Below are positions 209-4,625 of a stretch of DNA of 35,171 nt, in pieces. The stretch's first letter is position 1. The number at the start of each line of letters is the position of its first letter. The notes beneath the pieces are model-generated. The model saw only the letters and a list, made by a program, of their open reading frames with translations, was not told where the DNA came from and ran no database searches. The stretch is from the IMG/VR virus record IMGVR_UViG_3300030099_003858, positions 7,629 through 42,799 of that record. One strand, 5' to 3'. The translations under genes were made by a program, and so were the position numbers. The stretch is from a virus.

Positions 209-655
209 TTAGAATACTCCCTTAAGTTTACTCAAAGATTCCTCACGATCAAGCTCTTCCAAAATATCTTCCAAAGGACGAGCATCAGACTCCTCCAAAT
301 AATCCGCAGCCTTCCGCAACACCTCGGGGCGATCCAAGGAATGCCCCAACACCGAATTACAATGCAAACAAAGAAGACCACGAATCAAATACCGATCACC
401 ATGCAAATGATCCACATGAATCTTCGACGTAGACATAACAGAAAAATCAGCATCACAAATCTTACAACGACCACCCTGCGCAGCCATCAAACGAGTCTTA
501 TGCTTCGCAATATGATACTGCCGACGCTTATACACCTTCCAACACGGATCACAATACGTTTGATTATCCTTATAATCCGACACCCACTCCTCACAATAAC
601 GACAAAACTTTAATTTTTTATTATGAAAATCAGCAGTAGCCATCAATAAGAACAT
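209..655 (-). CDS. Endonuclease VII-like HNH Holliday junction resolvase
   Basis: Probable phage recombination endonuclease VII (Endonuclease_7 family, T4 gp49-like), which cleaves branched DNA before packaging. An N-terminal CxxC...CxxC pair (C18, C21, C35, C38) could bind one zinc. The core then has CKIC (C64, C67), the catalytic VDHLHG (D82-H83) and CLHCN (C96, C99, N100), which match the zinc ligands and Asp-His-Asn site of the T4 enzyme. At 148 residues it is close to the T4 length of 157. A second in-frame ATG at 643 (MATADF) is possible; neither start has a strong Shine-Dalgarno site. It is the first gene of the leftward arm and faces the hairpin array. The phage also has a RuvC-like resolvase on the other arm. 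Confidence 0.88.
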   Translation of the reverse strand: MFLLMATADFHNKKLKFCRYCEEWVSDYKDNQTYCDPCWKVYKRRQYHIAKHKTRLMAAQGGRCKICDADFSVMSTSKIHVDHLHGDRYLIRGLLCLHCNSVLGHSLDRPEVLRKAADYLEESDARPLEDILEELDREESLSKLKGVF

Positions 656-701
656 ACTTCAGGGCAACAAAAAACACAACCCAAAACCCAAATCCGTCAT
701 A

Positions 702-755
702 TACATACGTGTGGGGTAGAGTGCTGTACGGGGTACAGCACCCCCACACGATGTA
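702..755. repeat. Long two-tier hairpin nearest the endonuclease VII gene
   Basis: Outer arms 702-716 and 742-755 pair over 14 bp with A707 bulged out. After a 4-base bulge (717-720) the inner arms GTGCTGTAC (721-729) and GTACAGCAC (733-741) pair perfectly around a GGG loop. No T-run follows on either strand, so it is not a typical intrinsic terminator. Confidence 0.85.
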
Positions 756-1138
756 AACAGACCCCCCTGGTTTCTCCGAAACCCATAGGGGGGCCTATCG
801 CCCCTCACTAACCCGACATATCGGCAGGAAACCTGCCGTATCGTCGGTAAGTTCACCCCGAACCCCACCCAAACAACTAACTTACCACCACAACAAACAA
901 ACAAACCCCAACCACTCACACCCTGCGTTTTCTGCTTTGTCTCTGTTCTTTTGGTAAGCCTGTGCAAGGGCGTTCTTTTCCATGAAAAGAACCAAAAATG
1001 CCACGGAGTGATCCGTGGACGATCACCCCGCGTTCGGGGGGAACAGTTTGCGTTTTTCGGAAGAACACCGAAAAACGTTTCTTGAAAAGACCAAGAAACA
1101 AGTCTCTTCTTCTTCAGGGATGAAGAAGCAAATCCTTT

Positions 1139-1231
1139 CCCCGCAACCATTTATTGTTTTATTCGCACATGTCGGTACCCCAACACCGCCTGTGCGGTGT
1201 TAGCGACATGTGACGTATTGTGGTTGCGGGG
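1139..1231. repeat. Nested hairpin element, copy A
   Basis: Three tiers of perfect pairing: CCCCGCAACCA (1139-1149) with 1221-1231, CACATGTCG (1166-1174) with CGACATGTG (1204-1212), and AACACCGC (1182-1189) with GCGGTGTT (1194-1201) around a CTGT loop. The single-stranded linker GTACCCC between tiers two and three is identical in copy B at 1527-1580, while the stems differ by compensatory changes. Confidence 0.85.
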
Positions 1232-1319
1232 ACCTACTTTTTTCTGCAAAAAGTAGGCAAAAACGCCCCCCCCAGTGCCAGAATTGTACAATCCGCTCTG
1301 CTCTGGTGACGTGCTTAAC

Positions 1320-1372
1320 GGAAACGCGGGGGCCCGGAACACCCCACTGGGGTGTTCTTCCCCGTCGTTTCC
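1320..1372. repeat. Nested hairpin element, variant C
   Basis: GGAAACG (1320-1326) pairs with CGTTTCC (1366-1372), CGGGG (1327-1331) with CCCCG (1360-1364), and GAACACCCC (1337-1345) with GGGGTGTTC (1349-1357) around an ACT loop. The inner hairpin is nearly identical to that of copy B (1548-1564), but the outer stems are unrelated. Confidence 0.8.
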
Positions 1373-1526
1373 TACACTTCAAATCGTCGCCAAGATTTTT
1401 TCAGCCGTTGATCCGTATCTGCCCTACGGAAAAGTGAATTTAAATTCTTTGGCAAAGTCGAGTGCCATTTCTCAGAAACGACACCACACAGACAGTGGTG
1501 TCGATTCGAAATGTTGCACTCACTAC

Positions 1527-1580
1527 GATTACGATGTCGGTACCCCAACACCCCACTGGGGTGTCGGCGACATCGTAATC
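1527..1580. repeat. Nested hairpin element, copy B
   Basis: GATTACGATGTCG (1527-1539) pairs with CGACATCGTAATC (1568-1580) over 13 bp without mismatch. Inside, ACACCCC (1548-1554) pairs with GGGGTGT (1558-1564) around an ACT loop. The core ATGTCGGTACCCCAACACC is shared with copy A (1169-1187). Confidence 0.85.
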
Positions 1581-1658
1581 TATGCCAAACAATTAAAATG
1601 TTTTCCGTGGTCAGCTACGGATCTGAAAACGACGGCTGAAAAATTCTTGTCTTTGGAT

Positions 1659-1686
1659 TTGACACTGCGAGCAGTAGGGATAGTAG
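1659..1686 (+). promoter_or_regulatory. Candidate promoter for the rightward arm
   Basis: A perfect -35-like TTGACA at 1659-1664 is followed, after 16 bases, by a weak -10-like TAGTAG (1681-1686). It lies just after the hairpin array and about 40 bases before the first small gene of the arm. The poor -10 box keeps this tentative. Confidence 0.3.
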
Positions 1687-1939: not shown

Positions 1940-3077
1940 AAAAGAAATAGAAATGTTAATAGATGAAGGATATGAAGACATCGAAATGAACGGTGAAAGC
2001 GTATCCCATAATCAACTGATAATTGAATTAAATAAAAAGGAGGTTCCAGACATGGGACATAAACAATATATTGAAAGTAATAAGAATCCAGACGTTATAG
2101 GGGAGCACAGCATCTTCGACGATTCTGATAAAGGCCCAGATATTAAAGATGCGCCTAAGGGATTGAAAGCCTATACCGTTACTGCTAAAGCCAATAGCGG
2201 AAGCGGACAATCCGTCAACTGGAATTGGGAGCAGATCCACCAGATCATTTGCGACAGCATGTTTCCTTGGCCCGACGTGAGTTCATTTCCGAGTGAGTCA
2301 AGCATCATGAGATCCGAACTCTCGAACGAAGAGAAAAGGGCAAAGATCCTGTCACGTCGAGCTACTCAGCATAAAGCGAACACGCTGGTTGCGCCGAATC
2401 CGAAAGCCAAGTCAGACATGTCATGGGCTCTAGGCGAGTCAATAGGCTTCCAGTACATCGGCAACGGCGCAAGCCTCGACTTCTACGGAATCGGAGATCA
2501 AGTCCCAGAGTTTGTGGACACTTGGGTCTTTAAGGCTATTGACGACCAGCATCTTAGGATGTCTGAAGTTATCACACTTGAGGCAATAGTCCAGAACCCA
2601 GACGGTTCACAGGAATGGCATAAAGTCGGTTGGATGTATCCGCCGAGTGACTGCCCTGACGCTAAAAAGTTCCTTAACCGAATCTTCGCCAGCTACACCG
2701 CTAAGTCCAACGACTCGGCGGGGGATGGACAAACTGCCGAGATGAAAGCCATGTCGATGCCCGAGATCACGCAAGAGGAAATCAACTATCTTGCGAGAAA
2801 ACAGGAAGGCATCTTGTCCATCGAGGAGCGAGAAGCCGAAGAGCGTAAGCAAGCCAGAAGAGCAGAGGCAAGACGCAGAAGGGAAGAAGAGACTGCAGAA
2901 ATGACTCTTGAGTCAGACAAACAGAGGATTAAAGATCTTCAGAGGAAAACCGAACTTGTGGAGTCAAAGACTAAGAGAAAAGATAAAAAGCCAATGCTAG
3001 ATGAGTATATCGAAGTTGGTGAAAAGTTAGAACCAAATAACCCATTCCATAACTTCTCAAATTCAGTTAGGAAATGA
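1932..3077 (+). CDS. Unknown 381-residue protein with C-terminal charged coiled coil
   Basis: I recognise no family. The N-terminal 80 residues are acidic and polar. The middle (about 85-260) looks globular, with Trp-rich stretches such as VNWNWEQIHQII and MYPPSDCPDAKKF. Residues about 285-350 are a strongly charged Glu/Arg helix likely to form a coiled coil. The 1932 start has AGGAGAAAAAA before it. A stronger ribosome site, AAGGAGG at 2037-2043, precedes an in-frame ATG at 2052 (MGHKQY), so a 341-residue form is also likely. Two lines inside the gene (2401-2520) are 53% GC against about 38% in downstream genes, which hints at a different origin. A strong terminator follows at 3087, and hairpin arrays lie on both sides of this small operon. 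Confidence 0.75.
   Translation: MNKKEIEMLIDEGYEDIEMNGESVSHNQLIIELNKKEVPDMGHKQYIESNKNPDVIGEHSIFDDSDKGPDIKDAPKGLKAYTVTAKANSGSGQSVNWNWEQIHQIICDSMFPWPDVSSFPSESSIMRSELSNEEKRAKILSRRATQHKANTLVAPNPKAKSDMSWALGESIGFQYIGNGASLDFYGIGDQVPEFVDTWVFKAIDDQHLRMSEVITLEAIVQNPDGSQEWHKVGWMYPPSDCPDAKKFLNRIFASYTAKSNDSAGDGQTAEMKAMSMPEITQEEINYLARKQEGILSIEEREAEERKQARRAEARRRREEETAEMTLESDKQRIKDLQRKTELVESKTKRKDKKPMLDEYIEVGEKLEPNNPFHNFSNSVRK
2037..2054 (+). promoter_or_regulatory. Strong internal ribosome binding site with in-frame ATG
   Basis: AAGGAGG at 2037-2043, 8 bases before ATG 2052, is a near-perfect Shine-Dalgarno site and is stronger than the one at 1932. It either marks the true start or makes a second, 341-residue product. 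Confidence 0.6.
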
Positions 3078-3086
3078 GTTAATCAT

Positions 3087-3141
3087 GGAGTTGAGAGGTA
3101 AGTTCCCCTTGCTTGCCTCTCAACTCCTAACATTTTTTTTT
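3087..3141 (+). terminator. Rho-independent terminator
   Basis: Arms 3087-3102 and 3112-3127 pair over 16 bp with one G-T wobble around a 9-base loop. A nine-base run of T's starts at 3133. It closes the 1725-3077 operon. Confidence 0.9.
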
Positions 3142-3153
3142 ATCTGGCGGTAG

Positions 3154-3335
3154 TTGCATATTTTTCGCCAGCTAAAGCTGGAACAAAAAATATGCAAACG
3201 AGACTCTGTCTCGTGCTCTGCTTCTTCACGTGAAGAAGCAAACGCCACTCAACGATGAGTGGACAATCGCTCCGTATCGCAACGGAGAGTGCGCTCGGGT
3301 TTCGCCCCGAGACGACGACTCCTCAAGCGCCGGAG
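3154..3335. repeat. Second hairpin array after the 381-residue gene
   Basis: The 343 bases between 3077 and 3421 hold the terminator and then a run of hairpins: 3154-3165/3186-3197 (12 bp) with 3168-3172/3177-3181 inside; 3198-3204/3208-3214; a perfect 22-base palindrome at 3219-3240; 3245-3251/3256-3262; 3270-3275/3282-3287; 3294-3299/3306-3311; and a weak 3319-3322/3332-3335. The style matches the 702-1630 array, and the stem GCTTCTTCA/TGAAGAAGC is close to that at 1109-1128. No gene is apparent. Confidence 0.8.
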
Positions 3336-3420
3336 AGGCTTGGGATTTGGTAAGCCATTTACGTGGCCCGAGCAAACCCAAAATATAAACAAAGTTATCT
3401 ATAAAAAAGGAGGAATAACA

Positions 3421-3780
3421 ATGTTTAAATATTTACTAATAGTTATAACTTTAATTATTGGTACTTACTATTACCTAGATAGGACAGAACCCTACGAGTA
3501 TGGTGAATGTGATCCATTTTGTAATGTTACTGTTCAAAGGGTTATTGATGGCGATACCTTTACTACTGAAAGTGGTTTGGTTATTAGGCTTGCTGGTGTT
3601 AATACGCCAGAGATCAATAGCCCTCTTGGTTACCAGCACAAATTGTGTTTGGAAGCCTTGATAGGTAATAAGAATATAAGAATAAAATTATTACAGAAAG
3701 ATAAATATGGAAGACAAGTGGCTCAAGTAATAAGTCACAGGTCAACATGCAATAGACAAGAATTGAGATTGTTCTCATAG
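3421..3780 (+). CDS. Membrane-anchored staphylococcal-nuclease-like protein, short C-terminus
   Basis: Thermonuclease (SNase) family, which hydrolyses DNA or RNA with Ca2+. The start at 3421 has a perfect AAGGAGG site; the frame is open further upstream, but that is hairpin DNA. Residues 4-18 are a hydrophobic membrane anchor or uncleaved signal. The SNase fold follows: VIDGDTF (D45), IRLAGVNTPE (R56, N61, E64) and DKYGR (R98). These match staphylococcal D21, R35, E43 and R87, with D40 replaced by Asn. At 119 residues the protein stops soon after the YGR motif and lacks the usual last helices with the VN...L...GLA segment. It may be a minimal or degraded enzyme, perhaps used on exogenous or host DNA at the membrane. 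Confidence 0.8.
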   Translation: MFKYLLIVITLIIGTYYYLDRTEPYEYGECDPFCNVTVQRVIDGDTFTTESGLVIRLAGVNTPEINSPLGYQHKLCLEALIGNKNIRIKLLQKDKYGRQVAQVISHRSTCNRQELRLFS

Positions 3781-4573: not shown

Positions 4574-4625
4574 CAATATGTAGTGTGGCCTTAGTAAGCC
4601 TCTCCAATATGTAGCGTGGCCTTAG
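4574..4625 (+). repeat. Pair of 21-base direct repeats, 31-base period
   Basis: 4574-4594 and 4605-4625 differ at one base (ATGTAGTGTGGCC versus ATGTAGCGTGGCC) and both end CCTTAG. The second copy ends 12 bases before the lysozyme-like start, where no ribosome site is visible. Tandem spacing near three helical turns suits a protein-binding operator; an RNA role is also possible. Confidence 0.6.

Follow-up and report, generated by a model that had tools for sequence, protein, structure and literature searches.

What is encoded at the point where the two gene arms of an uncultured phage diverge, in a stretch of dense hairpins, and is it the DNA or an RNA copied from it that has been selected to fold? 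We examined this in a 35,171-nt stretch of DNA, hereafter the window, corresponding to positions 7629-42799 of the 42.8-kb virus record IMGVR_UViG_3300030099_003858. The minus strand carries the late genes: at the left of the window EndoVII, TerL, portal and endolysin, at its far right those for capsid and tail proteins. The plus strand carries the early/replication genes, including an SNF2 helicase, a polymerase exonuclease subunit, a PD-(D/E)XK nuclease, a Sak4-like annealing protein, a primase and SSB-like proteins, and this set is closed by a small terminase. Provided that the record is circular, the gene order suggests one late and one early block diverging from the hairpin junction.

In the GenBank phage collection, the closest capsids come only from Arthrobacter, Microbacterium and Cellulosimicrobium phages or from two uncultured podoviruses, and an actinobacterial host is therefore likely. 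The related IMG/VR contigs are presumably marine, judging by their dataset numbers, and the window phage, which is uncultured, is probably marine. A search for DNA similarity to phages and plasmids found none, with only two phage matches at E 4, and a host and prophage search in a genome collection gave just one weak Enterovibrio EndoVII fragment.

A hairpin field far above chance

The preliminary description had reported a dense array of perfect hairpins with little spacing at 702-1630. The field is real and far exceeds chance. Between 702 and 1640, perfect stems with loops of 3-9 bases number 13 at a length of at least 6 bp (shuffled mean 1.43, maximum 5), 11 at 7 bp or more (0.49, maximum 3), 8 at 8 bp or more (0.08, maximum 2) and 6 at 9 bp or more (0.04, maximum 1). 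Folded as RNA, the whole region gives z-scores of -18.3 on the plus and -20.0 on the minus strand against 20 shuffles, and of -20.9 and -17.2, respectively, when refolded with 40. Three 450-nt windows tiling the field rank 1, 3 and 4 by structure among 116 along the window, rank 2 being a smaller second hairpin field at 3001-3450 (z -9.9). Nowhere in some 1 Mb of further contigs, a total that includes overlapping copies of loci, did local perfect hairpins reach a similar density.

The density thus held up, and the extent needed correction: the field is better bounded at about 740-1650, 850-960 is almost free of hairpins, and long-range stems exist beside the local ones, such as that spanning 1394-1645 (Table 1). 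Nor are almost all stems different from one another, as had been thought. Hairpins 1166-1212, 1320-1372 and 1527-1580 share a common build, in which a basal stem is followed by a 5-nt bulge at the 3' side and by an apical stem with a 3-4-nt loop; two of the three have the same GGUAC bulge, and the apical stems of the three are in part nearly identical. Copies A and B differ by U.G/C-G, A-U/G.U and G-C/C-G exchanges that preserve pairing in the minus-strand RNA.

Other readings of the region were rejected. Open reading frames inside the field have no homologues in Pfam or PHROGs and are not conserved in relatives, which argues against a protein-coding region. For a CRISPR array, already discounted in the preliminary description, the repeats are missing: 500-1800 contains two short repeated pairs and no further repeat family. 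Terminators had also been set aside; four terminator-like matches are in fact present, a number not above the shuffled 2.0 +/- 1.4.

Table 1. Features of the junction and its surroundings (window coordinates)
Feature	Position	Strand	Basis
Endonuclease VII (EndoVII, His-Me finger), first late gene	209..643	-	PF02945 5e-19; PHROG endonuclease VII; alignment
Late promoter-like block, conserved in sequence	650..735	-	alignment of 8 junctions
Order within this block: ACAGCACTCT, -35-like TTGTGT (674-679), 17-nt T-rich spacer, -10-like TATGTT (651-656), 7 nt, EndoVII ATG		-	
Nested perfect stems CGTGTGGGG/CCCCACACG around GTGCTGTAC/GTACAGCAC, overlapping the conserved ACAGCACTCT	708..750	-	
Structured field with hypervariable sequence; probable structured RNA from about 1650 (5' end) to about 740 (3' end)	740..1650	-	stem counts, z, G-U excess
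Stems 759-768/787-796 and 813-828/832-847, with UAGGCCCCCC motif	757..847	-	
GGCUUAC motif, recurring in structured elements of the window phage and relatives	954..960	-	
Perfect hairpins 972-992 and 1001-1018; alternative stem 1004-1030	972..1030	-	
Perfect 10-bp hairpin	1051..1077	-	
Outer stem CCCCGCAACC/GGTTGCGGGG around copy A	1139..1231	-	MFE
Bulged hairpin copy A: architecture of copy B, identical GGUAC bulge	1166..1212	-	z -5.2, self-similarity, alignment
Perfect 10-bp hairpin	1233..1257	-	
Third bulged hairpin: apical stem nearly that of copy B, basal stem different	1320..1372	-	z -4.4
Rod-like 5' domain closed by UUUUUUCAGCCGU/ACGGCUGAAAAAA, holding hairpins 1479-1503 and 1527-1580	1394..1645	-	MFE and centroid fold
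Bulged hairpin copy B: basal stem, 5-nt 3' bulge GGUAC, apical stem, 3-nt loop	1527..1580	-	z -5.9
Candidate early promoter TTGACA, 16 nt, TAGTAG	1659..1686	+	by eye, weak; missed by promoter scan
Second, smaller hairpin field between two early genes (array seen over 3078-3400)	3140..3390		z about -9 to -11

Strong folding recurs in relatives and the sequence does not

As relatives we took IMG/VR contigs encoding an EndoVII of 82-90% protein identity, and studied seven junctions, all upstream of this same gene: that of the window and those of L012, L014, L016, L018, L019 and L022. All seven fold beyond shuffles on both strands, with z-scores of -4.5 to -17 on the late-gene strand, over lengths ranging from 380 to 1045 nt. 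Relatives without structure at this site, which would have spoken against selection on it, were thus not encountered, though their junctions hold fewer local perfect hairpins than the window's. With 7-base words, BLAST matched the lineages to one another in the last ~80 nt alone, the pair L018/L022 excepted, yet the adjoining EndoVII gene is 82-93% identical in DNA. Because every junction folds while the lineages cannot be aligned beside so similar a gene, structure is conserved at this site and sequence is not. The earlier suggestion that selection acts on structure itself gains from this recurrence, and from stem changes that preserve pairing.

A fold architecture common to the lineages is not established; a basal stem closing the whole RNA is present in the L018/L022 consensus, is not robust in the other lineages and is not claimed here. 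Scanning for the motif CCTGAAGTATGTTCT brought up no EndoVII-bearing relatives beyond those already known, and TerL and helicase searches yielded no additional junction. Contigs L013, L015, L017, L019, L020, L021, L023 and L024 end at or near the junction, at scattered positions, and this clustering may reflect assembly breaks at hairpins or variable sequence, or true genome termini.

Mismatches in stems point to an RNA read towards the late genes

DNA hairpins are indifferent to whether a stem mismatch is G-U or A-C. To favor neither strand, we disallowed G-U pairs when folding the junctions, and then tallied the single mismatches that lie within stems. In the EndoVII direction, the seven junctions contain 20 G-U against 4 A-C mismatches (p 0.0015), and folding the opposite strand gives 21 against 2 in that same direction (p 7e-5), where the shuffled background of this count is 5.0 G-U to 5.2 A-C. 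Every junction showing such mismatches leans to G-U in the same direction, the window's own count being small (2-3 against 0 A-C). A direct tally of helices with one mismatch gives 24 G-U and 10 A-C, with a background of 7.6:8.5.

The alignable pair L018/L022 agrees. Its consensus fold reaches -111 kcal/mol in sense (the late-gene strand) and -85 in antisense. The sense consensus holds 100 pairs, of which none is broken, with 3 double and 7 single-sided, G-U-dependent changes; since RNAalifold picks pairs that hold, the absence of broken ones is partly by construction, and the contrast between strands is the informative part. Several of these pairing-preserving changes sit in one long-range helix of more than 30 bp that is absent from the opposite-strand consensus. 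Strand-biased C-to-T deamination could imitate a G-U excess, but the mix of A/G and C/U exchanges between L018 and L022 makes this less likely. The plus strand of the window folds equally well relative to shuffles.

Conserved pairing with compensatory and wobble changes is thus seen in one close pair, in the hairpin copies within the window and in the mismatch test over seven loci. Base pairing is kept while sequence and length (~0.4 to 1 kb) vary, and the pairing rules are supported as those of RNA in the late-gene direction. As the G-U/A-C asymmetry, L018/L022 and the in-window copies agree, what has been selected is most likely a minus-strand RNA, read leftwards, and among the options raised in the preliminary description the long structured RNA is the one favored.

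A promoter-like block lies between the field and EndoVII

EndoVII is listed as an open reading frame from 655, and in the alignment its conservation begins at the ATG at 643. The ~80 nt before it are conserved in sequence in 8/8 junctions, though they have no consensus fold; a shared late terminator here was rejected, the fold of this stretch not being conserved. In relatives the block reads TTGnnn, 17 nt, TATGTT, 6-7 nt and start codon, a layout identified there by pattern and in the window by eye. These last bases resemble a late promoter from which a leaderless mRNA would start; such mRNAs are frequent in mycobacteria and the actinobacteria related to them. As the field lies upstream of this putative promoter, the arrangement favors a separate RNA over a leader, and read-through would be possible. 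No promoter for the RNA itself is convincingly common to all lineages: L018 and L022 have TATAAT, and TTGACG-17-TATAAT occurs inside L016, at different places.

Proposed reading and its alternatives

We put the probability at roughly 0.6 that the field is the DNA of a long, folded, leftward-read and untranslated RNA, whose transcription, ends and role we infer. Strongly folded and encoded at this site throughout the phage group, the RNA would be transcribed from the minus strand towards the late genes, from about 1650 at the right edge of the early/late divider down to 740, and would end just upstream of the separate, sequence-conserved late promoter before EndoVII.

A DNA-level role in packaging would instead place the linear genome ends at the junction, with hairpins or cruciforms guiding terminase cutting or concatemer processing, perhaps together with EndoVII as a Holliday-junction nuclease. 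A packaging signal or an origin had been among the initial suggestions, and the former draws on distant cultured relatives, Arthrobacter phage Jasmine and Microbacterium phage Shocker, which share the divergent junction, a related capsid (~30% identity) and a helicase/exonuclease/AAA-ATPase set with the window phage, and have exact direct terminal repeats at the corresponding junction (1330 bp in Jasmine, 484 bp in Shocker). The Jasmine junction is structured as well: its repeat opens at 45394, in the central loop of a perfect 11-bp hairpin, and this hairpin belongs to the stretch that ranks second by structure in that genome (z -8.5). The junctions of the two phages have no sequence similarity to that of the window. 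EndoVII is also directly downstream of the field, with TerL further on, and 8/14 EndoVII contigs in IMG/VR stop no more than ~610 nt from the EndoVII start. Against this, DNA stems should show no preference for G-U over A-C, the window's own record shows no terminal repeats, and Shocker is just modestly structured at its junction. The contig ends, moreover, do not share one site but are spread out, the pattern to be expected where assemblies break at hairpins or variable sequence. We regard a packaging or terminus element as unlikely.

A replication origin, with the single strand folding during initiation, would suit a field that is structured on both strands and located at a divergent junction where cumulative GC skew has its minimum; GC skew, however, tracks gene direction and is not independent evidence, no iterons or AT-rich unwinding element were noticed, and the G-U asymmetry would not be predicted, which leaves an origin very improbable. 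In a neutral intergenic region, template switching that turns quasi-palindromes into perfect ones could produce many perfect, local stems, hairpins that look duplicated and fast sequence turnover. It fails to predict long-range pairing and the RNA-type wobble retention between L018 and L022, and 0.4-1 kb of non-coding DNA kept at one site in all lineages suggests function; we consider such a mutational by-product the least probable explanation. Closer to the RNA reading is a 5' leader of the late mRNA acting in cis by attenuation or antitermination. The field lies directly upstream of the first gene of the late block, on one strand and in the same direction in all lineages, it follows minus-strand RNA pairing rules, and a T-rich run comes after it in most lineages. 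The antitermination RNA put of phage HK022 likewise forms a hairpin where a phage operon begins, but it is short and conserved in sequence, unlike this hypervariable field of 0.4-1 kb with a promoter-like block after it. That block, found in 8 junctions and without a conserved fold, stands between field and gene and puts the start codon 6-7 nt past the -10 element, as in a leaderless late mRNA. We therefore hold a leader to be possible and rather doubtful.

For the separate leftward RNA, action through duplex content or shape rather than letters seems likeliest, since letters, length and layout change and pairing does not. The leading, though tentative, possibility is that the structured RNA acts in trans by occupying a host RNA-binding factor, a nuclease or an RNA-sensing defence, which would also account for the fast sequence turnover. 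Next after it comes, with somewhat less weight, a structured leader in cis that makes the long late operon resistant to termination; given the promoter-like block downstream of the field, the RNA need not belong to the late mRNA.

The large phage RNAs known so far came to light through alignments and covariance models, which a hypervariable RNA would slip past. We suggest, tentatively, a class of long phage RNAs in which selection acts on the amount and place of pairing alone, not on letters, length or a fixed architecture. On this proposal, close relatives would come to carry unalignable, equally folded versions through an arms race with an RNA-reading host factor. If this were true, many long RNAs may sit in phage genomes, visible only to a scan for fold without sequence at syntenic sites, and a connection between structured phage RNA and the host factors involved in its sensing or degradation could be put to the test.

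Relation to known structured RNAs

At the gathering threshold, Rfam gave no match in the window or six related loci, and neither did the GOLLD and ROOL covariance models. A lax Rfam search of three junctions returned at best a Na+ riboswitch at 16.1 bits (cut-off 40.5, E 1.7), and nothing in L016 and L012. GOLLD and ROOL, non-coding RNAs of phages and prophages whose function is unknown, are long (GOLLD often >800 nt) and highly folded and show little sequence conservation (PMC12286853). The field resembles them in being long, folded, poorly conserved in sequence, of phage origin and likewise of unknown function. It differs in that they have one recognizable covarying architecture and often lie near tRNA islands, a frequent and not obligatory neighbourhood, whereas the field has no Rfam match, its window contains no tRNA, and its length and architecture differ between close relatives. 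A further comparison is cabRNA, a structured staphylococcal phage RNA from the terminase genes that is linked to CBASS immunity and demonstrates that a host is able to sense structured phage RNA (PMC10686824). Both would be structured phage RNAs at the terminase end of the genome, but cabRNA arises within terminase genes and the field is a separate intergenic region. By analogy, host sensing of such an RNA is a possible reason for the field's rapid turnover.

Other structured elements and motifs

The smaller array at 3078-3400 comprises a terminator-like hairpin followed by at least five stems, and carries a GGCTTAC motif on the minus strand. Its homology to the main field is not significant (score 176, where shuffles average 131 and reach 190). 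A syntenic structured element lies upstream of an early gene in L018 (2700-2945) and L022 (1710-1955); in L018 its mismatch types slightly favor RNA in the early, right-arm direction, opposite to the junction, in numbers too small to weigh. In Jasmine, the strongest structured stretch (L116:28201-28500, z -9.8) is inside the endolysin gene and not at the junction.

Upstream of right-arm genes, and read in their direction, we also identified a motif pair consisting of GTAAGCC and, after 6-24 nt, often GTNGCCCTA, which is possibly a phage-specific promoter or operator. It occurs at 4600, 3356 and 960 in the window, 1670, 4488 and 5648 in L012, 1201, 4562 and 5403 in L016, 2761 and 5745 in L018, and 1771 and 5750 in L022. 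Small, cassette-like early genes are found at L022:4440-5400, L018:5090-5320 and L007:1-480, each with a promoter-like TTGTACACAACAATGTGTATAAAAT, an AGAAAGG ribosome site and a GGGAGG...CCTCCC terminator. The sense strand of L016:5390-5980 contains GGGTGGGTGGGTGGG, a classic G-quadruplex pattern, and G-rich tracts occur there in other lineages.
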